Positions 23,648-39,384 of a stretch of DNA of 64,000 bases are shown one piece after another (position 1 is the first letter of the stretch; each line of letters opens with the position of its first letter). Origin of the DNA: Slackia sp. (lineage in GTDB: Bacteria > Actinomycetota > Coriobacteriia > Anaerosomatales > Anaerosomataceae). The position numbers and the translations under genes are program-made. The DNA lies in the NCBI GenBank assembly GCA_020725885.1, contig DYEA01000016.1, positions 62,001 through 126,000 of the forward strand. Reading direction: 5' to 3'. The notes beneath the pieces were generated by a model that had not been told where the DNA came from, did not search any database, and saw only the letters and a list, made by a program, of their open reading frames with translations.

Positions 23648-25810
23648 ATGAGCGCGAAGCGTACGTGGGCGGTTCTGCTGGCTCTCGTGATAGCGCTGGC
23701 AGCAGCCAGCCCCGGATACGGGTCCGTGTCCGGCGCGGCCCTCAGGCCGCTCGCTCTCGACGACGACATCCCGGGCGTCCCGCTTGACACGTACCCAGTC
23801 GTCTCGCGGACCGTCACGGGCACGCTCGATGCGGTGCCGATCTCGTCGCCTCCCGAAGACGCCATCGACCTGTTCTCGCTGTACCTTGCGCCGGGGGACC
23901 AGATCCAGGCGCGGCTCACCGGAAACCCCGGAACGGACTTCGACTTGTATCTCTTCAGCCCGGACTCCGTCACGTTCATCGCCGCCCACGAGGTGATGGC
24001 CTCGATCACGCCGGCCTCGTCGTCGGAGAGCATCTGCTACACCGCGAGCGAGCGGTTCGGCGCCGGCCGCTACTACCTGGCGGTCGTGACTTGGAATTCT
24101 GAAGGCTCGTACCAGCTGGACTGGCACGTCTCCGGCCGCTCCGACGGCAACGTGCCAGGTCGGACGCTCACGAAGTCGTCCGTCACAGGCACCGTCGACC
24201 CGTTCGCAGACCGCGACGACGTGTACGCGCTGCGGATCGCGGAGATGGCGAGCGTCGCGGTCACGCTCACGGTCGACGGAGCGACGGCGCCTGTGGACCT
24301 GGTCGTGTTCCCGCCCGTGTGGAACAACGGCGGCGTGCTCGAGCCGACGCTCGACGTGTACCACGCGGGAGACGCGACGGCGCGTCGCGGCACGGTGGTG
24401 ACCGCGACCGTCCAACCCGCGTCTGGGCGTGACGGCACGTGGTACCTGGACGTGCGCGCGGTCTCAGGCCCGGCGACCTACACCCTCGAATGGCAGGCGC
24501 AGGTGGACGACGTGCCTGGGACGCCGTTCGAGGGCCAGCCGGTCAGAGGCGACCTGGATCCGCGCCGGTTCATCAGCATGCCGCTGAGGTGGGGACAGGA
24601 GCTGCGGGGCTCGCTGTGGACGAGCCCGGTGGTAGCAGTGAACGGGACGCTGTACGGTCCTGCTGCGGCGTCGCGAAGCGACACGAGCGCCATCGTGTGG
24701 TCGACGAGCTGGCCCGCAGACAACCAACCCAAGAGGTTCTCGTACACCGTGCCGTCCGAGAACGCGGAAGGCGCCTACTTCTTGAACATCGAGAGGGCGG
24801 CGGACTACGCGCTGTTCGAGCAGCGGCTGTGGAGGGCGGTGTCGAGCCGGCGGCTCGACGGCGCAGACCGGTATGCGACCGCCGTGCGCATCGCCCAGTC
24901 GGGGTTCCGTGGCGGGTCGGACGTCGTCGTGGTCGCGAGCGGGGAGACGTTCCCGGATGCGCTCTCGGCGTCGGGGCTTGCGGGCGCGTACGACGCGCCG
25001 TTGCTGCTCGTCCGGAAGGCAGCGCTGCCTGACGTCGTCCGCGCGGAGATCGACCGGCTGGCGCCGTCGCGCGTGTTCGTCGTCGGCGGTCCAGGCGCCG
25101 TGTCAGACGCCGTGCTCTCCGCGATCGCCGCTCGGCCCAGCGTGAAGGACGTGACGCGCGTGTCCGGCGCCGACCGGTACGAGACGTCCGCGGAGGTCGC
25201 GCGGCGCATCGCGTCGCGGCTGGGTCCCGACTTCGACGGCGTGGTGTACGTGGCTCGCGGGGACCTGTTCCCCGACGCGCTTGCGGTCTCGCCGTTGGCG
25301 TGGCGCGGCAGGCGTCCGATCCTGCTGACGCGTCCCACGGCGCTCCCGGACAGCGTGCATGACGCGCTGCTCGGCCTGGCTCCGTCTGAAGCCGTGGTGC
25401 TGGGCGGCACGGGAGCGGTCTCTGCGGCCGTCTACGACGCGGTCGCTGCCCTGAGCGCCTCTGCGCGCCGTATCGATGGCGTGGACCGCTACGAGACGGC
25501 GGCGAAGGTCGCGCAGGACGGCATCGGCACGGGCGTTGCCAGCCCGGCGTTCGTGGCGCTCGCGACCGGCACGAACTTCCCGGACGCGCTCGCCGGCGGT
25601 GCGCTCGCAGGCGCGGAGTCGGGCGTCCTCGTGCTCACTCCGCCGGGCGCGCTCTCGCCGTATGCCGCCGGCTTCCTGTCGGGCGCGAAGGAGTCGGTTG
25701 AGGCGTGCCGGCTGCTGGGCGGCGCGGGCGCGCTGTCCGATGCCGTGCGGGCGTCGGTGGACGCGGCTCTCGCACGGACGTTCCCGGACGACCCGCCGTC
25801 ATGGTGGTGA
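23648..25810 (+). CDS. Secreted protein with PPC-like domains and three cell-wall-binding-2 repeats
   Basis: A 720-residue exported protein. A signal peptide (MSAKRTWAVLLALVIALAAA, with a likely cut after about residue 25) is followed by two or three beta-rich segments resembling PPC domains, with DxFDLYLFSPD-like motifs (about 70-165, 180-285 and onward). From about residue 400 there are three repeats that start with RLDGADRYATAV, RVSGADRYETSA and RIDGVDRYETAA and contain FPDAL and VVLGGTGAVS-like elements. These are cell-wall-binding repeat 2 modules, which usually come in threes and attach proteins to anionic wall polymers. No enzyme domain is visible. ATG with GAGGGAGGG upstream. Confidence 0.85.
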   Translation: MSAKRTWAVLLALVIALAAASPGYGSVSGAALRPLALDDDIPGVPLDTYPVVSRTVTGTLDAVPISSPPEDAIDLFSLYLAPGDQIQARLTGNPGTDFDLYLFSPDSVTFIAAHEVMASITPASSSESICYTASERFGAGRYYLAVVTWNSEGSYQLDWHVSGRSDGNVPGRTLTKSSVTGTVDPFADRDDVYALRIAEMASVAVTLTVDGATAPVDLVVFPPVWNNGGVLEPTLDVYHAGDATARRGTVVTATVQPASGRDGTWYLDVRAVSGPATYTLEWQAQVDDVPGTPFEGQPVRGDLDPRRFISMPLRWGQELRGSLWTSPVVAVNGTLYGPAAASRSDTSAIVWSTSWPADNQPKRFSYTVPSENAEGAYFLNIERAADYALFEQRLWRAVSSRRLDGADRYATAVRIAQSGFRGGSDVVVVASGETFPDALSASGLAGAYDAPLLLVRKAALPDVVRAEIDRLAPSRVFVVGGPGAVSDAVLSAIAARPSVKDVTRVSGADRYETSAEVARRIASRLGPDFDGVVYVARGDLFPDALAVSPLAWRGRRPILLTRPTALPDSVHDALLGLAPSEAVVLGGTGAVSAAVYDAVAALSASARRIDGVDRYETAAKVAQDGIGTGVASPAFVALATGTNFPDALAGGALAGAESGVLVLTPPGALSPYAAGFLSGAKESVEACRLLGGAGALSDAVRASVDAALARTFPDDPPSWW

Positions 25811-25830
25811 GAGCGCCGAGGGCGGCGCGG

Positions 25831-25859
25831 TTGACAGCGCGCGGACGCGCGCGTAGACT
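25831..25859 (+). promoter_or_regulatory. Promoter of the methionine T-box operon
   Basis: TTGACA (25831-25836), a 17-base spacer and TAGACT (25854-25859) form a near-consensus sigma-70-type promoter 21 bases after the preceding gene. Predicted transcription would start around 25866, just ahead of the T-box leader. Confidence 0.75.
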
Positions 25860-25887
25860 GCCGCTCCAATCCCATACGTGCCGTCGA

Positions 25888-26208
25888 TGGGGATGAGTAC
25901 GCGGGACCGGTAGGTCCGCCAGAGAGCCGGGGCAGCTGGAAACCGGCGTCCGAAAGCCCGCGGAACATGGCCCCAGAGGCATCCGGAGGAAACGCTTGTC
26001 GCAGGCGGAGTAATGCCGGACGGACGCCCCCGTTATCGCAGGCTTCGTGAGCATCGGACCCCCTCGGCTGACTCCCGCCGGCCGAGCAGGAAACGCCACC
26101 GGTCCCGTGCTCGAGATGAGGCCGCGCACGGCGCGGCGAAGTCGGGTGGTACCGCGAAGGCATCGACGCCTCTCGCCCTGACACGAACTGTCGGGCGGGA
26201 GGCGTTTT
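25888..26208 (+). promoter_or_regulatory. T-box riboswitch, methionine specifier, transcriptional
   Basis: Stem I can be drawn: TGGGG (25888-25892) pairs with CCCCA (25971-25975), and GCGGG (25901-25905) with CCCGC (25957-25961). The internal loop between them has AGUA on one side and GGAAC-AUG-G on the other. AUG at 25967-25969 is in the specifier position, i.e. Met. The distal CAGAGAG (25920-25926) fits the AG bulge. The T-box GGGTGGTACCGCG is at 26144-26156; its TGGT would pair with ACCA, fitting the discriminator A of tRNA-Met. It is followed by a terminator hairpin (26166-26205) and TTTT. Uncharged tRNA-Met should allow read-through into the homocysteine/methionine genes. Confidence 0.88.
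26166..26208 (+). terminator. T-box leader terminator hairpin
   Basis: ACGCCTC-TCGCCC-TGACA pairs with TGTC-GGGCG-GGAGGCGT around a short loop, followed by TTTT. It lies directly after the antiterminator T-box sequence, and the ATG of the first structural gene is 20 bases further on. Confidence 0.8.
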
Positions 26209-26227
26209 GCATGTCGGGAGGTGCAGG

Positions 26228-27400
26228 ATGGCGAAGACGTGGGACGAGATCAACGAGCGCATCGCGTCAGGCGCCGCTGTGGTGCTCACGGCGGAGGAGT
26301 TCGCCGAGCTGGCCGCGGACGTCGGCGTGAGCGAGGCGGCGCGCCGGGTCGACGTGGTGACGACGGGCACGTTCGGGCCGATGTGCTCCTCAGGCGTCGT
26401 GCTCAACTTCGGGCACAGCGACCCGCCCATCAGGATGAGCCGCATCACGCTGAACGACGTCGAGGCCTACGGCGGGCTTGCTGCGGTGGACACCTACCTC
26501 GGGGTGACGCAGCAAAGCGCGACGCGGGGGCTCGAGTACGGCGGTGCGCACGTCATCGAGGACCTGCTGGCGGGCAAGGCCGTCCGGCTGCGGGCGTGGA
26601 GCTCGGGCACGGACTGCTATCCGCGGACCGAGATCGACACGTGGGTCCGTCTCGACGACTTGAACCAGGCCTACTTCTTCAATCCACGGAACGCATACCA
26701 GAACTACGCCGTGGCGGTGAACTCGTCGGACGCCGTGCTGCACACGTACTTGGGGACGCTTCTGCCGAGGTTCGGCAACGCGACGTACTGCTCTGCAGGA
26801 GCGCTGTCGCCGCTCCTGAACGACCCGACGTATCGCACCATCGGGGTGGGCAGCCGCATCTTCGTCGCGGGGGCGCCCGGGTTCGTGGCGTGGGAGGGCA
26901 CCCAGCACAACCCGAACCAGCAGCGCGACGAGCACGGCGTGCCGGTCGCGCCGGCTGGGACCCTCGCGGTCATCGCAGACCTGAAGCGCGCGTCGACGCG
27001 GTTCTACGCAGCCGCGTCGATGACCGGGTACGGCGTGAGCGCCTTCGTCGGCATCGGCGTGCCGATCCCCGTGCTGGACGAGGACATCGCCGCGACGCTC
27101 GCGCTCACGGACGCCGACATCAGCGCGACCGTCTTCGACTACGGCGTCCAGCGCCGCAGCCGGCCGGCGCTTGGGCGGGTGACGTACGCGGAGCTGCGGT
27201 CCGGCGTGATCCAGGTGCAAGGCAAGAAGGTCCCGGCCGGTCCGATCAGCTCGCTCGCGAAAGCGCGCGAGATCGCGAGGGAGCTGAAGCGGTGGGTCGC
27301 GGAGGAACGGTTCACGCTCGCCGAACCGCTGCAGCGCTTGCCCCAGCCGGGCGAGCAGGGCGTCAAGCCGCTGGAGATCCGCGCTGAGGAGGCGATATAG
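26228..27400 (+). CDS. Homocysteine biosynthesis protein (DUF39/HcyBio, COG1900)
   Basis: A 390-residue protein of the DUF39 family. Members work with a NIL-ferredoxin to make homocysteine from aspartate semialdehyde and sulfide in Methanosarcina (the MA1821/MA1822 pair), bypassing acylated homoserine. Family-like segments are TTGTFGPMCSSGVVLNFGHSD near residue 42, a conserved Cys in RAWSSGTDCYPRTE near residue 124, FFNPRNAYQNYAVAVN and CSAGALSPLLNDP. It has no CBS domains at the C-terminus, unlike some homologues. It is the first gene behind the Met T-box, starts at ATG after GGGAGG and abuts the ferredoxin gene with no gap. Confidence 0.9.
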   Translation: MAKTWDEINERIASGAAVVLTAEEFAELAADVGVSEAARRVDVVTTGTFGPMCSSGVVLNFGHSDPPIRMSRITLNDVEAYGGLAAVDTYLGVTQQSATRGLEYGGAHVIEDLLAGKAVRLRAWSSGTDCYPRTEIDTWVRLDDLNQAYFFNPRNAYQNYAVAVNSSDAVLHTYLGTLLPRFGNATYCSAGALSPLLNDPTYRTIGVGSRIFVAGAPGFVAWEGTQHNPNQQRDEHGVPVAPAGTLAVIADLKRASTRFYAAASMTGYGVSAFVGIGVPIPVLDEDIAATLALTDADISATVFDYGVQRRSRPALGRVTYAELRSGVIQVQGKKVPAGPISSLAKAREIARELKRWVAEERFTLAEPLQRLPQPGEQGVKPLEIRAEEAI

Positions 27401-27808
27401 ATGCCGCGCAAGAGGCTCGACCTCACGTTCCCGCCACGGCAGGCCACGAAGCCCATCACGTATCACCTCGTGAAGGACTTCGACCTGGTGCCGAACATCC
27501 TGCGCGCACAGATCCATCCTGGCCAGGAGGGCCGCATGGTCCTCGAAGTGACCGGCCGCAAGGAGGACTTCGACGCGGGCATCGCGTTCCTGGAGTCCGA
27601 GGGCATCGTGGTCAAGCCTGCAGCGACCGACATCTGCCTGGATGCTGAGAAGTGCGTGCTGTGCGGCCTGTGCACGGCGGTGTGCCGTCCCGGGGCCCTG
27701 ACGCTCAATGGCCGCGGCGACGAGCTCGTGTTCGACAAGGACAAGTGCGTGTACTGCGAGGCGTGCGTGGTAGCCTGTCCGCGACGGGCCATCACGCTGG
27801 AGTTCTAG
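27401..27808 (+). CDS. NIL-domain 2[4Fe-4S] ferredoxin, homocysteine synthesis partner
   Basis: A 135-residue protein. Residues about 5-75 form a NIL domain (LTFPPRQATKPITYHLVKDF), a module otherwise found on methionine ABC ATPases where it binds methionine. Residues about 78-135 hold two [4Fe-4S] motifs, CVLCGLCTAVC and CVYCEACVVAC followed by P. This domain pair matches MA1822-type proteins that deliver electrons or sulfur with DUF39 proteins. The ATG follows the upstream stop directly, with GAGGAGG inside the previous gene. Confidence 0.92.
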   Translation: MPRKRLDLTFPPRQATKPITYHLVKDFDLVPNILRAQIHPGQEGRMVLEVTGRKEDFDAGIAFLESEGIVVKPAATDICLDAEKCVLCGLCTAVCRPGALTLNGRGDELVFDKDKCVYCEACVVACPRRAITLEF

Positions 27809-27826
27809 GCCGCGAGAGGAGCAGAG

Positions 27827-28168
27827 GTGCCGCAGCTTCGGTTCTTGCAGACCTTCGCAGCCCTGGCGCTCGCTGCCGTCGTCCTCACCGTCGTCGCGCT
27901 GCCGGTCGGCGCGCGCGGGGGCGCACGCGCCGGACGCCGGGTGCTCCGGGCCGGTGCGATCCTGCTGGCGGCGGGGCTCGCCGGAAGCGTCGCATGGGGC
28001 GTCGCGTCTGGCGAGTGGACGGTGTTCTGGCAGGAGCTCGGGCTCGATGCCGTCGTCCAGATCGGCGCCTTCGTGCTGATCGTGTACTCCACCGCCCACA
28101 ACTTCGTATCGCGCTACTTGGACGACAAGGCCGCCTCGGAGCGGGCGAGAGGAGCGGCGGATGCCTGA
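27827..28168 (+). CDS. Small three-helix membrane protein in the methionine operon
   Basis: A 113-residue protein with a GTG start and GAGAGGAG upstream. Three hydrophobic segments are visible: residues about 6-26, 42-60 and 72-92; the C-terminus is polar. I recognise no family. Its stop overlaps the metH start by eight bases, so it is an integral part of the operon. A sulfide, homocysteine or methionine channel accessory role can only be guessed. Its charge distribution (Arg-rich loop after helix 1) suggests the first loop is cytoplasmic. Confidence 0.6.
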   Translation: MPQLRFLQTFAALALAAVVLTVVALPVGARGGARAGRRVLRAGAILLAAGLAGSVAWGVASGEWTVFWQELGLDAVVQIGAFVLIVYSTAHNFVSRYLDDKAASERARGAADA

Positions 28169-30563
28169 CATCGCCGTCCGTCTTGGCCGCGAGGTGCTCG
28201 TCGTCGACGGCGCGATGGGCACGATGCTGCAGCGCGCGGGCATCCCGCCCGAGCAGCCGGGCATCCAGCTCAACCTGATCGCGCCCGAGGTCGTGGCCGA
28301 CGTCCACCGGAGCTACGTGCTCGTGGGTGCAGACTGCGTGACCACCAACACCTTCGGGGGGTCGCGGCCGAAGCTCGCGCAGCACGGGCTCGAGGGAATG
28401 CTGGAGGAGCTGAACCGCGCCGGCGTCCGGCTTGCGCGCGAGTCCGGAGCGCAGCACGTGCTCGCGGACGTCGGTCCGACCGGCTTGGTCATGGAGCCGC
28501 TCGGGAACGCGACGTTCGACGAGGTGTACGCGCACTTCTTCCAGCAGGTGCGCGCGCTGGCCGCAGAGTCGCCCGACGCTATCCTCATCGAGACGATGAC
28601 CGACATCGCCGAGGCCCGCTGCGCCGTGCTCGCTGCGCGCGACGCGTGCGACCTGCCCGTCTTCGTGACGGTCACCTTCGGGCGGGGCGGCGTGATGGAC
28701 CTCTCCGGCACGCCGCCGGAAGCAGCCGCGGCGATCCTCGAGTCGGCGGGGGCGGCCGCTGTCGGCATCAACTGCGGGCTCGGCCCAGCCGAGATGCTCC
28801 CGCTCGTCGAGCGCATGGCAGGTGCGACTGCGCTTCCCATCGTCGTGCAGCCGAACGCCGGCATCCCGCGCGTCGAGGGCGGAGCGACGGTGTTCCCGGG
28901 CACGGCGGACGAGATGGGCGCGTTCGCGGCCGAGTTCGTGCGCGCGGGCGCGTCGCTCGTCGGCTCGTGCTGCGGGTCGACGCCTGCGTTCACGGGCGCG
29001 ATCGTCGACGCAGCGAAGCGCCTGCCCGTCGCTCCTCGGACCGGTAGGGGTCCCGGCGTGGCGTTGGCGAGCCCGCGGCGGACGCTCGCTATCGGCGGCG
29101 GCAGAAGGATCGCCGTCATCGGCGAGCGCATCAACCCGACGGGGAAGAAGGCGCTCGCAGAGTCGCTGCGAGAGGGCTCGATGGCCCTCGTGCGGCAGTA
29201 CGCGGCAGAACAGGCGGCTGCGGGCGCTGATGCGCTCGACGTCAACGTCGGGGCGGCTGGCGTCGACGCGCGCGACGCGCTCTCAAGCGCCGTGCTCGCG
29301 CTCGTGGGGTCGTGCGACCTGCCGCTCGTGCTGGACAACACCGATCCAGAGGCGTTGGAGACAGCGCTGAAGCGATACCCGGGCCGGGCGCTCATCAACA
29401 GCGTCAACGGCGGCGAGGCGTCGATGGAAGCCATCCTGCCGCTGGCGAGACGGTACGGGGCAGCGGTGCTGGTGCTCGCGCTCGACGACGCCGGCATCCC
29501 GCACGACGCGGAGGGGCGGGTGCGGATCGTGGAGCGCGTCCGTCAGCGTGCCCGCGAGGCCGGCTTGTCGGACGACGACCTGCTCGTCGACTGCCTCGTG
29601 CTCGCTGCCGCTGCCGAGCCGGGCTCGGCGGTGCCGACGCTCGAAGCTTTGCGCGCCGTCAAGTCGCTCGGGCTCGCGACGGTCCTCGGCGTGAGCAACG
29701 TGAGCCACGGGCTTCCGGGCCGGTCCACGCTCAATGCCGCCTTCGCAGCGATGGCGGCTGCCGCCGGCCTCGACGCGGCCATCGTGAACCCCGGCGACGA
29801 GGAGGTCATCCGCGCTCTCGCGGCTGCGGAGGTGCTGTTGGGCCGGGACGAGCGGGCGGCGCGCTGGACGGCGATCCACGCAGTGCCGGCCGACCCCGTC
29901 GCGCAGGCGCAGGAGCGTTCGGTCGAAGCGCGGCTCGCGGAGTGCATAGAGCGTGGAGACGCCGACGGTGCGCCCGCGCTCGTCGAGCGCCTGATCGCAT
30001 CTGGCTGGGCTCCGGGCGACGTCATCGGGCAGGTCCTCACGCCGGCGATCCAACGGCTCGGCGACGCGTACGGTCGCGGTGAGGTGTTCCTCCCGCAGCT
30101 CATCGCAGCGGCAGACGCGATGAAGGCGGCCGTGGAGACTGCGAAGCGCCACTTGCCGCCTGGCGAGGGGTTGGCGGCGGGCCGCGTGGCCTTTGGCACC
30201 GTGAAGGGCGACGTGCACAGCATCGGCAAGGACATCTGCATCTCGATGCTCGAAAGCCAGGGCTTCGTCGTGGACGACCTCGGCGTGGACGTGCCGCCGG
30301 AGCGGTTCGCAGACGCTGCGCTGAGCGCCGACGTGGTGTGCGCGTCGGCGCTGATGACGACGACGCTTCCTGCGATGGAAGAGACGGTCCAGGCGGTCGC
30401 CAAGACGGGCACGCCAGTCCTCGTCGGCGGCGCCGTGGTGACTGCGGAGTACGCGGCGTCGATCGGGGCAGGATACGCTGCGGACGCGCCTGGCTGCGTC
30501 CAAGCGGTTCGAGCCGCGGTCGCGGCGGAGAGTGGAGACGCTCGCAAGGAGGACCGGCCGTGA
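28161..30563 (+). CDS. metH: Cobalamin-dependent methionine synthase lacking the activation domain
   Basis: An 800-residue protein with three modules. The homocysteine-binding barrel (1-300) has zinc Cys in GINCGLG and VGSCCGS. The methyl-THF (pterin) barrel (about 310-580) starts IAVIGERINPTGKKAL. The cobalamin cap and Rossmann domains (about 600-795) have KGDVHSIGKDI, the DxHxxG lower-ligand motif, at about 691-697. The C-terminal AdoMet-binding reactivation domain is absent, as in Thermotoga-type enzymes, so reductive reactivation of cob(II)alamin must come from another protein. The stop overlaps the next gene as GTGA. Start ATG after GAGAGGAG. Confidence 0.93.
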   Translation: MPDIAVRLGREVLVVDGAMGTMLQRAGIPPEQPGIQLNLIAPEVVADVHRSYVLVGADCVTTNTFGGSRPKLAQHGLEGMLEELNRAGVRLARESGAQHVLADVGPTGLVMEPLGNATFDEVYAHFFQQVRALAAESPDAILIETMTDIAEARCAVLAARDACDLPVFVTVTFGRGGVMDLSGTPPEAAAAILESAGAAAVGINCGLGPAEMLPLVERMAGATALPIVVQPNAGIPRVEGGATVFPGTADEMGAFAAEFVRAGASLVGSCCGSTPAFTGAIVDAAKRLPVAPRTGRGPGVALASPRRTLAIGGGRRIAVIGERINPTGKKALAESLREGSMALVRQYAAEQAAAGADALDVNVGAAGVDARDALSSAVLALVGSCDLPLVLDNTDPEALETALKRYPGRALINSVNGGEASMEAILPLARRYGAAVLVLALDDAGIPHDAEGRVRIVERVRQRAREAGLSDDDLLVDCLVLAAAAEPGSAVPTLEALRAVKSLGLATVLGVSNVSHGLPGRSTLNAAFAAMAAAAGLDAAIVNPGDEEVIRALAAAEVLLGRDERAARWTAIHAVPADPVAQAQERSVEARLAECIERGDADGAPALVERLIASGWAPGDVIGQVLTPAIQRLGDAYGRGEVFLPQLIAAADAMKAAVETAKRHLPPGEGLAAGRVAFGTVKGDVHSIGKDICISMLESQGFVVDDLGVDVPPERFADAALSADVVCASALMTTTLPAMEETVQAVAKTGTPVLVGGAVVTAEYAASIGAGYAADAPGCVQAVRAAVAAESGDARKEDRP

Positions 30564-31237
30564 TCGTGACGAAACCGCGTTCGCTCGAACGCATCCTCGA
30601 AGACTTGCAGTCGGTGGGCGCTCGCCGCGTGTTCGTCGTCGGGTGCGGGGAGTGCGCTACGGCCGCCAGGACGGGAGGCGAAGAAGAGGTCGCCGCGTTC
30701 TCGCGCTGGCTCGCGGAGCACGGCTTCGAGCCGACCGGTGGCGTGGTGCCCGAGGTGACGTGCCACCGTCCTGGCGCGGCTTCGGCTTTGCGCAAGCACC
30801 GAGAGGCGCTGGATGATTCGGACGCGGTGGTCGTGCTTGCGTGCGGGGCCGGGACGCAGGCCGTGGCTGACGCCGCCGGCCTGCCGGTGTTCCCCGGCCT
30901 CGAGTCTTCGTTCCTCGGCATGGCTGTCCGTAACGGCGAGTTCGAGGAGCGTTGCCAGATGTGCGGCGAATGCGTTCTCGACGCCACCGCCGGCATCTGT
31001 CCGGTCACTGCGTGCCCCAAAGGCCTGCTCAACGGCCCATGCGGCGCGATGTGGGAGGGCGTCTGCGAAGCTCTCGGCGACCAGGAGTGCGTGCACGTGC
31101 GGATCCGAGAACGCCTGGCTGCGCAGGGCAGGGGCGCGGCCGGCGTCCTGCCGCCGAAGGACTGGTCGAAGAAGCGCAAGCCGGACGCCGTGTCCGTGCG
31201 GGAGCGCGTGCGGCGCGGGCAGGAGGGCTCGCGATGA
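30560..31237 (+). CDS. metV: Methylenetetrahydrofolate reductase C-terminal domain protein, MetV-like
   Basis: A 225-residue Fe-S protein. GTG start overlapping the metH stop, with AAGGAGG eight bases upstream. The N-terminal half (VFVVGCGECATAARTGGEEE) resembles the CoM/CO-methylating partner domain. The C-terminal half carries Cys-rich CQMCGECVLDATAGICPVTAC and a PKGLLNGPCGAMW block, the MTHFR_C signature. In acetogens such a subunit (MetV) pairs with MetF and lets it take electrons from sources other than NAD(P)H, e.g. ferredoxin. It is overlapped ATGA by metF here, consistent with a complex. Confidence 0.88.
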   Translation: MIVTKPRSLERILEDLQSVGARRVFVVGCGECATAARTGGEEEVAAFSRWLAEHGFEPTGGVVPEVTCHRPGAASALRKHREALDDSDAVVVLACGAGTQAVADAAGLPVFPGLESSFLGMAVRNGEFEERCQMCGECVLDATAGICPVTACPKGLLNGPCGAMWEGVCEALGDQECVHVRIRERLAAQGRGAAGVLPPKDWSKKRKPDAVSVRERVRRGQEGSR

Positions 31238-32118
31238 GCCGGTTGCGCGACGCGCTCGAGCGCGGGGAGTTCGTCGTAACCGGCGAGATCGCTCCGCCGC
31301 GTGGATCCGACCTCGCCGCGATGCGCGAGACGATGCGCATCGTCGGGCCGCGCTGCCACGCGCTCAACGTCACCGACAACCAAGGCGCATCGCTTCACAT
31401 GTCGAGTTTCGCCGCGTGCCTCGTGGCCAAGGAGCTCGGCTACGAGCCCATCTTCCAGCAGACGTGCCGGGACCGGAACCGCCTCGCGCTGCAGTCCGAC
31501 CTGATGGCGGCGTGGGCGTTCGGGATCGAGAACGTGCTCGTCGTGACGGGGGACGACCCTCGGTCCGGGGACCATCCGCAGGCGCGCGGCGTGTTCGACC
31601 TGGACTCGACGCAGCTGCTTCAGGTCGCGGCCGGGATGAACGAGGGCCACGACATGCAAGGCCGGCCCCTGAGCGGCGGTCCCACCGGCTTCTACCTCGG
31701 TGCCGCGGTGTTTCCCGAGGCCGAGCCGTGGGGTGCGCAGCTTGCGCGGGCGGTCGGCAAGATCGAGGCCGGAGCGCGGTTCTTCCAGACACAGGCGGTC
31801 TTCGACCTCGACAAGCTTGTGCGGGCGGTCGACGCGCTGCACCAGCACGGCGCGAAGGTGGTCGCCGGGGTGCTCGTGCTTCGAAGCCCGCGCGTGATCG
31901 ACTTCGTAAACAAGCACCTCGCCGGGCTTGCGGTGCCCGACGACGTCGCGAAACGCATCCGGGAGGCACCTGATCCGGCCGAAGCGGCGATCGACCTCGC
32001 CGTCGAGCAGGTCGCGGCGATCCGCGACATCGCCGACGGCGTCCACGTCATGCCCCTCGGCCTCGACGCGCGCGTCCCGGAGATCCTTGCTCGCGCGGGG
32101 GTCGCCGCGGGTGCCTGA
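31234..32118 (+). CDS. metF: 5,10-methylenetetrahydrofolate reductase
   Basis: A 294-residue FAD-dependent TIM-barrel enzyme that makes methyl-THF for the MetH reaction. It has the catalytic Glu in VVTGEIAPPRGSD near residue 18, VTDNQGASLHMSS, VLVVTGDDPRSGDH and the late FFQTQAVFDLDKL (with the Gln used in folate binding). ATGA overlap with metV indicates a MetVF heteromer, as in acetogens. It is the last gene of the T-box operon; no clear terminator follows. Confidence 0.93.
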   Translation: MSRLRDALERGEFVVTGEIAPPRGSDLAAMRETMRIVGPRCHALNVTDNQGASLHMSSFAACLVAKELGYEPIFQQTCRDRNRLALQSDLMAAWAFGIENVLVVTGDDPRSGDHPQARGVFDLDSTQLLQVAAGMNEGHDMQGRPLSGGPTGFYLGAAVFPEAEPWGAQLARAVGKIEAGARFFQTQAVFDLDKLVRAVDALHQHGAKVVAGVLVLRSPRVIDFVNKHLAGLAVPDDVAKRIREAPDPAEAAIDLAVEQVAAIRDIADGVHVMPLGLDARVPEILARAGVAAGA

Positions 32119-32275
32119 GCGAAGCGGGGCGCACGCCGCGCCGTCGGGATACAAAGCGGCTGGGCGTCGCGCACGCGTATCCCGCGGACGTCGACAAGCG
32201 TTATCTTGGCTGAACGGCGATGAGCGCGCTGTGAGGAGTCGCGAGGTGCTAGGATTCGTAACAAGGAGAATTGCG
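32119..32275 (+). other. Intergenic stretch between metF and the TorD-like gene
   Basis: 157 bases with no supportable gene. It contains an AAGGAG at 32263-32268 serving the next gene. No clear terminator or consensus promoter was found by eye; TTATCTT near 32203 is a weak -10 candidate. Confidence 0.4.
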
Positions 32276-32986
32276 GTGCACCCGGCTCAGGCGGTCGCTG
32301 CGACGATGGCTGGTCTCGGAGAACAGGCGTGCAGGTGCGACCTCGAGTCGCGCATACGCACCTACGGCGCGCTCGCCGACGTGTTTGCCGGGTCGCGCGA
32401 GGAGGTCTGCGCGGCGGTCGGCAGGTTGCGAGGGGCCGGATCCTGGTGCTCGCTCGCGTTCTACGACGACGAGTCGATCCACGCGCTCGCCCGAGAGGCC
32501 GAGATCGCCGTGCGCAACCCGGACGCCGTCTCCGAGTTCCTCGTCGAGCGGCGCCGTCTGATCGGAGCGGAGTCGTTCGACCCGTTCGAGAACGTGGTTT
32601 CGCCGTGCGGGGCGATGTACGTCACGGACGATCCTGACACGCTGCTTGAAAGTCTCTCGAGCACCTATGCGCAGGCCGGCTACGTCGTGCGGTTCCGCGT
32701 CCCGTGCGAGTCGCACGTCGCGGTCGAGCTCGACTTCATGCGGTTCTTGCTGGAGTGCGTGCGGGCGCAAGACCCGAAGGCCGCCGAGGCGGCGGCCCGC
32801 TTCTTCATCGAGCACCTGTCGGGATGGTCGTTGCTGTTCGCGGTCGCGTTCGGCGATGCAGCGGCGACCCCGATCGCGCGCTACGCCGCCGTCACGCTCG
32901 ACCGCTTCCTGTCGTGCGAGGAGTCGGTCGTCAGGCACAGCGTCCCGGCGCGCTGCGTGCAGCACCGTCTGGCTGACCTTCCGTGA
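32276..32986 (+). CDS. TorD/DmsD-family molybdoenzyme chaperone-like protein
   Basis: A 236-residue all-helical protein. The block SRIRTYGALADVFAGSREEV, then SPCGAMYVTDD and LDFMRFLLECV, and FFIEHLSGWSLLFAVAF fit the TorD-like fold, whose members guard the cofactor insertion and Tat export of Mo/W oxidoreductases. The GTG start has AAGGAG seven bases upstream; the open frame extends further but without similarity. No molybdoenzyme structural gene is adjacent, but a MoaE-like gene follows, supporting a molybdenum link. Confidence 0.7.
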   Translation: MHPAQAVAATMAGLGEQACRCDLESRIRTYGALADVFAGSREEVCAAVGRLRGAGSWCSLAFYDDESIHALAREAEIAVRNPDAVSEFLVERRRLIGAESFDPFENVVSPCGAMYVTDDPDTLLESLSSTYAQAGYVVRFRVPCESHVAVELDFMRFLLECVRAQDPKAAEAAARFFIEHLSGWSLLFAVAFGDAAATPIARYAAVTLDRFLSCEESVVRHSVPARCVQHRLADLP

Positions 32987-38655: not shown

Positions 38656-39384
38656 ATGCCCTACGAGCCGCGCACATATCGCGAGCAGGTCGACCCGGCT
38701 GGTCTGGTCGGCTTCGAGGTGGTTCACGGCGAGACGGATCTGTTCGTGGCCGCTGCGCGCGACCTGGCAGAGGAGGCGCTCGACGTCGTGAAAGACCTGC
38801 GGCGAGCGCTCGACGCCTACGTCGTGACCCACCCGTGGTTCGCGGAAAGCCTGGCGCCGGTGCCGGTCGAGGACGACGCCCCGGGCATCGTGCGGTGGAT
38901 GGCCGCGGCCGCCGTCAGGACGGGCGTGGGGCCGATGGCCGCGGTTGCCGGCGCCGTCGCGGAAGCGGTCGCGCGCGCCTTGCAGCCGCGCTCGCGGGAA
39001 GTCATCGTCGAGAATGGCGGCGACGTGTTCATCCTGACCGAGACGGAGCGGCGGGTCCGGCTGGACGCGGGGGAGTCGCCGCTCTCGGGTCGCGTGGCCA
39101 TCGTCGTAGGACCTGCACCTGAAGGAGTCGCGGTCTGCACTTCGTCTGCGACGGTCGGTCCGAGCCTCAGCCTCGGCTCGGCGCACGCTGCGACCGTCGT
39201 CGCGAGCAGCGGCGCGCTCGCTGACGCGGCGGCGAGCGTCCTGGGCAACCTGCTGCACGATCCGGCAGACATCGCCGGCGCGCTCGAACGCGTCCTGGCC
39301 ATCGAGGGCGTCCTCGGCGCAGTGGCGGTCGTCGGCGATACGATAGGCGCGGCGGGCGCGGTCAGGCTCGATCGCGCCGCGTGA
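38656..39384 (+). CDS. UPF0280 family protein (COG2122, ApbE-like)
   Basis: A 242-residue protein with the family core VHGETDLFVAA near residue 30, HPWFAESLAPVPVEDDAPGI, RTGVGPMAAVAGAVAE and VIVENGGDVFI, which resembles the ApbE fold without its flavin-transfer Asp motif. The Methanosarcina homologue (MA1715, COG2122) has, as I recall, been tied to sulfide-based cysteine and homocysteine synthesis together with DUF39 and NIL-ferredoxin proteins, both encoded 11 kb away here. TAGGAT ends six bases before the ATG, and no Shine-Dalgarno is seen; a leaderless mRNA is possible. Confidence 0.85.
   Translation: MPYEPRTYREQVDPAGLVGFEVVHGETDLFVAAARDLAEEALDVVKDLRRALDAYVVTHPWFAESLAPVPVEDDAPGIVRWMAAAAVRTGVGPMAAVAGAVAEAVARALQPRSREVIVENGGDVFILTETERRVRLDAGESPLSGRVAIVVGPAPEGVAVCTSSATVGPSLSLGSAHAATVVASSGALADAAASVLGNLLHDPADIAGALERVLAIEGVLGAVAVVGDTIGAAGAVRLDRAA

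Follow-up and report, generated by a model that had tools for sequence, protein, structure and literature searches.

A T-box leader with a methionine specifier precedes a DUF39-type methionine operon in Slackia sp. and its relatives in the order Anaerosomatales

A leader of the T-box family lies directly upstream of a six-gene operon for the synthesis of methionine from sulfide in Slackia sp., a bacterium of the Anaerosomatales, which is an order of anaerobic subsurface bacteria. The leader very probably acts as a class I T-box that reads tRNA-Met and controls the methionine operon by transcription termination. The RNA family is known; what is new is the target of the T-box (a DUF39 operon of a little-known sulfide-to-methionine route) and the lineage in which it is found. 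The window referred to below is the whole stretch of DNA that was analyzed (64,000 nucleotides of contig DYEA01000016.1), and all features given by window position are on its forward (+) strand.

The initial annotation had read the leader as a complete T-box with specifier, T-box sequence, and terminator, and the covariance model of the family (RF00230) bears this out. The model matches positions 25874-26183 over its full length (model positions 1-219) with 61.2 bits and an E value of 4.8e-13 genome-wide (5.7e-13 locally), though the score falls under the Rfam gathering score of 93 bits. The match spans Stem I, Stem II, the IIA/B element, Stem III, and the antiterminator. The T-box sequence GGGUGGUACCGCG is found at 26144-26156, where UGGU (26147-26150) is complementary to the ACCA end of tRNA, and an intrinsic terminator hairpin with a T-run (TTTT) follows at about 26165-26208 (-33.0 kcal/mol). 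The 3' strand of the antiterminator overlaps the 5' strand of the terminator so that the two folds are mutually exclusive, and both are conserved. Upstream of the leader is a promoter-like site (TTGACA-17 nt-TAGACT, 25831-25859) with 10 of 12 consensus bases, which is the sole such site within the 6.7 kb from 25700 to 32400, where 0.2 would be expected. Judged by its sequence, the leader is an ordinary class I (transcriptional) T-box on every feature tested.

The other four T-box matches in the genome (87.5, 77.8, 77.2, and 33.3 bits) also score below 93 bits. Because T-box matches score below the gathering cutoff, an Rfam scan of the window at the default cutoff was empty, and such a scan misses every T-box found in the genome. 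The weakest match, before pheS (L005, G000:C8:25269-25327), comprises the 3' half of a T-box with no Stem I recognized; upstream of it, the letters GGUUCA may contain a UUC (Phe) specifier.

The specifier codon is AUG (Met) at 25967-25969, in the context GAA-C-AUG-G-CCCC. In the alignment to the Rfam model, GAA-N precedes the codon, and a purine separates it from the closing helix. The same position reads CUG (Leu) at ilvD, AUC (Ile) at ileS, and UGG (Trp) at trpE, and is thus cognate in all three of the other complete T-boxes of the genome (the genes were named from their translations). Since this position decodes correctly in those three T-boxes, the reading of AUG can be regarded as calibrated. 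A second internal control is provided by the trpE T-box, in which UGGC matches G73 of tRNA-Trp. The genome encodes three tRNAs with a CAU anticodon, all of which end in ACCA, complementary to the UGGU of the met leader. From their sequence features they are taken as the initiator (contig C17), the elongator (C1), and tRNA-Ile2 (C6). The presumed initiator tRNA (L176, positions 176-252, G000:C17) has the anticodon stem GUG/CCC, in which two of the customary three G-C pairs are present and the other position is a U-C mismatch.

The arrangement is conserved in the order, for which 69 genomes were sampled (the named members are Anaerosomatales and Coriobacteriia). DUF39 is present in 47 of the 69 genomes, and 45 of these are assessable, as two hold cut fragments. 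An AUG T-box lies directly upstream of DUF39 in 42 of the 45 (40 detected by pattern search and those of G091 and G129 by reading), while the reversed control pattern gave no match in the 69 genomes. Thus, the specifier proposed in the initial annotation recurs in relatives, and it is invariant across 25 aligned leaders. In the T-box fold of these 25 leaders, 15 pairs show changes on both sides, a count reached in 0 of 500 shuffles and to be compared with 0-9 for slid versions of the structure; the structure was the family model fitted to the leader of the window, the alignment was made by sequence, and kinship inflates such counts. The terminator is likewise conserved, with 87.9% of cells paired over the 25 leaders.

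The T-box is not indispensable, since the DUF39 loci of three of the 45 assessable genomes (G040, G065, and G105) have none. The DUF39 loci of G040 and G065 (L017 and L029), both in family f4, have no T-box at all, and both genomes also encode MetX. The locus of G105 (L184, G105:C12) has short segments similar to Stem II and to the terminator, a pattern suggestive of partial deletion of a leader. Away from DUF39, five candidates for a further Met T-box (L046, L047, L180, L181, and L182) were examined in the order and rejected because they lie in coding sequence or lack a T-box core; two other hits, at contig ends (G028:C20 and G071:C9), seem to be copies or pieces of the DUF39 leader produced by the assembly.

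The six open reading frames and families listed in the initial annotation were all recovered in the operon. The first gene (26228-27400, ATG start), preceded by the Shine-Dalgarno sequence GGGAGGTG at 26216-26223, encodes HcyBio/DUF39, the family that incorporates sulfur into homocysteine (PF01837, E 2.1e-145). It is followed by a gene for a protein with a NIL domain and a 4Fe-4S ferredoxin (27401-27808; PF09383, E 5.5e-17; Fer4, E 4.3e-13) and by one for a small membrane protein (27827-28168) that matches nothing in Pfam or NCBIfam; relatives of the latter were found by tblastn at 13 of 29 T-box-bearing named loci, some of which are on contigs that end early. MetH (28161-30563) possesses the homocysteine-binding, pterin-binding, and B12 domains (PF02574, PF00809, PF02607, and PF02310) but covers only positions 3-831 of the 1182 of TIGR02082, and its reactivation domain (PF02965) is absent both from the protein and from the genome. 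The operon ends with a MetV-like protein (30560-31237, GTG start; PF12225, E 3.9e-27) and MetF, the methylene-tetrahydrofolate (methylene-THF) reductase (31234-32118; PF02219, E 1.7e-32). MetH, MetV, and MetF each overlap the preceding gene by 4-8 nt (8 nt between the small membrane protein and MetH).

A third gene of the DUF39 route, COG2122 (UPF0280-like), lies at 38656-39384, 6.5 kb downstream and outside the T-box operon. Its product is 39% identical (E 5.8e-43) to its counterpart in a DUF39 operon of Bacillota (L128), which itself reaches E 1.8e-74 against NF003323, a score under the cutoff of that model. The genome therefore encodes HcyBio, the NIL-ferredoxin, and COG2122, the three proteins that are genetically required for homocysteine in Desulfovibrio vulgaris (PMC5764234). 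A RamA-like protein with a RACo_C_ter domain, encoded on contig 13, is the presumed B12 reactivator. MetH of D. vulgaris also lacks the reactivation domain (PMC5764234), and the RamA-like protein here resembles the solution of that organism. The initial annotation had placed the whole pathway in one tRNA-controlled unit; this holds for the six genes of the T-box operon but not for COG2122 or the presumed B12 reactivator, which lies on another contig.

The expectation that acyl-homoserine enzymes would be lacking was borne out in the genome, where no MetX (TIGR01392), no MetA (PF04204), and no convincing MetB, MetC, or MetY was found (matches to PF01053 are weak only, the best at E 5.8e-8). With MetX and MetA absent and the PF01053 matches weak, no acyl-homoserine route is evident. 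A second genome of the same genus (G005) also has DUF39 and the T-box and no MetX. Of the 52 genomes of the order with a completeness of 90% or more, DUF39 alone occurs in 22, DUF39 together with MetX in 15, MetX alone in 12, and neither in 3 (Fisher p 0.014, uncorrected for relatedness). Because several relatives also have MetX, DUF39 is not the sole possible route in them. Growth without yeast extract has been described for Parvivirga hydrogeniphila Es71-Z0120. The conserved AUG T-box provides independent support for the DUF39 genes serving methionine synthesis in these anaerobes.

The mechanism predicted from these features, including tRNA binding, antitermination, the enzyme activities, and the choice between initiator and elongator tRNA, is as follows. 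RNA polymerase would start near 25866 and transcribe the leader. An uncharged CAU tRNA would pair through its anticodon with the AUG of Stem I and through its ACCA end with the UGGU of the T-box, and the tRNA-bound antiterminator would permit transcription of the genes for DUF39, the NIL-ferredoxin, the small membrane protein, MetH, MetV, and MetF. When tRNA-Met is charged, the terminator would form. The enzymes would produce homocysteine from aspartate semialdehyde and reduced sulfur, make methyl-THF, and methylate the homocysteine. It is conceivable, if doubtful, that the T-box senses initiator tRNA-fMet specifically and gauges the capacity for initiation rather than the general Met-tRNA pool. 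The Met T-box of the Staphylococcus aureus metICFE operon is a precedent, as it binds the initiator tRNA and does so even after a change of the specifier (PMC3771891), so that the identity of the sensed tRNA may not follow from the AUG codon by itself. Furthermore, the anticodon and the ACCA end are common to all CAU tRNAs of the genome; hence, codon and T-box sequence do not choose among them. No feature favoring the initiator was found in the met leader, however. It is very improbable that the T-box has decayed to a relic, or works at the level of translation (class II), and exerts no control over transcription. T-boxes of other Actinobacteria are mainly translational and located on ileS (PMC1262725; PMC7583486), but their Stem I is truncated (PMC7583486) whereas that of the met leader is long. 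In addition, a strong terminator with a T-run lies just before the Shine-Dalgarno sequence, shares its 5' strand with the antiterminator, and is kept across the order.

The regulation of DUF39 operons in other phyla raises the alternative that S-adenosylmethionine (SAM), and not tRNA-Met, is the signal. When 80 named DUF39 loci were scanned for motifs, T-boxes preceded the gene in the order and S-box motifs occurred at most 350 nt before it in 21 loci outside the order, while many further outside loci showed neither motif. An Rfam search of 10 outside loci preselected on the motif found a SAM-I riboswitch before DUF39 (or DUF39-NIL) in 9 of the 10, with 75.8-101.2 bits. The nine loci are Bacillota records (including Peptostreptococcaceae and Halanaerobiaceae) and one Nitrospirae record; the tenth (L136, Endomicrobiales) scored below the SAM-I cutoff. 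As the loci were chosen on the motif, the search establishes that SAM-I riboswitches do occur before DUF39 in more than one phylum and does not give the frequency of this arrangement. For the operon described here, control by SAM is nonetheless extremely improbable. The met leader gave no match to SAM-I (RF00162) at E values up to 1, RF00230 alone being found, and the single SAM-I-like match of the genome (L196, positions 432-562; G000:C6:84931-85061; 38.7 bits against a cutoff of 44.4) precedes a metK-like gene, the translation of which resembles S-adenosylmethionine synthetase. One SAM-I-like match is present in 60 of the 69 genomes of the order, 16 of them over the cutoff; the downstream gene was checked in the genome of the window. 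It thus appears from sequence that methionine biosynthesis would follow the charging of tRNA-Met, and the synthesis of SAM would follow SAM itself.

The preferred reading, a transcriptional T-box responding to tRNA-Met, has a close parallel in the met leader of S. aureus (metICFE-mdh), in which a Met T-box and terminator also precede a whole methionine operon while relatives use SAM-I (PMC3771891). That system differs in that it controls a trans-sulfuration operon rather than DUF39, belongs to Firmicutes, and has been demonstrated experimentally, with a preference for the initiator tRNA (PMC3771891). The SAM-I riboswitches on DUF39-NIL operons of Bacillota and Nitrospirae share the two lead genes and the position with the present leader, but their ligand is SAM and they belong to another RNA family. 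Exchange of S-boxes for T-boxes is already known in staphylococci and Lactobacillales (PMC3771891; PMC3766115). The DUF39 operons carry different regulators for the same pathway (a SAM-I riboswitch in other phyla and a tRNA-Met T-box in one order), a naturally occurring swap. The question posed by staphylococci, why methionine is monitored through tRNA charging in some bacteria and through SAM in others, thereby becomes testable on a second, independent pathway.

Class II ileS T-boxes of actinobacteria (PMC1262725) belong to the same RNA family and phylum as the leader described here, but they are translational, respond to isoleucine, and have no terminator. For methionine operons of Actinobacteria, a survey published in 2005 detected no conserved RNA element (PMC1262725). 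With the present leader, the Actinomycetota, whose reported T-boxes are mainly translational ones on ileS, would gain a transcriptional Met T-box. The DUF39 route of Desulfovibrio and Methanosarcina employs DUF39, the NIL-ferredoxin, and COG2122 as here, and the available part of the source (PMC5764234) mentions no T-box for it; the locus tags given there for D. vulgaris are far apart, indicating that the genes are not in one operon. The initial annotation knew of no T-box on the DUF39 route, and none is named in the literature covered by a partial search.

In the leader, IIA/B and Stem III are separated by an additional, order-specific hairpin (26049-26112, about 65 nt), the outer stem of which is predicted by alignment folding. 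Its loop motif, CUCCCGCC (26072-26079), is present as such or in altered form in 35 of the 39 distinct leaders; it is missing from the other four (L028, L035, L120, and L189), in three of which the hairpin is mostly gone. The loop is complementary to the 3' strand of the terminator, GGCGGGAG (26194-26201), and this strand is its best complementary partner anywhere in the leader in 35 of 35 cases, with 5-9 consecutive pairs in the short loop taken. The median shuffle p is 0.036 per leader; the p values are descriptive because the leaders are related and G+C rich and the complementarity was noticed before testing. Two other observations were set aside: an invariant U-G pair of the terminator as evidence for pairing of the loop with the terminator, since the same wobble occurs in the terminator of the trpE T-box, which has no such hairpin, and a possible pairing of a linker CCACC with the T-box bulge, which was seen by eye and is absent in several leaders. 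The hairpin is treated as a lead only. Somewhat improbably, it might be a second antitermination element: after release of GGCGGGAG by the tRNA-bound antiterminator, CUCCCGCC would capture this strand and keep the very stable G+C-rich terminator from re-forming. In the lineage of L014 and L123, both sides have changed, the loop from G to A and the terminator from C to U.
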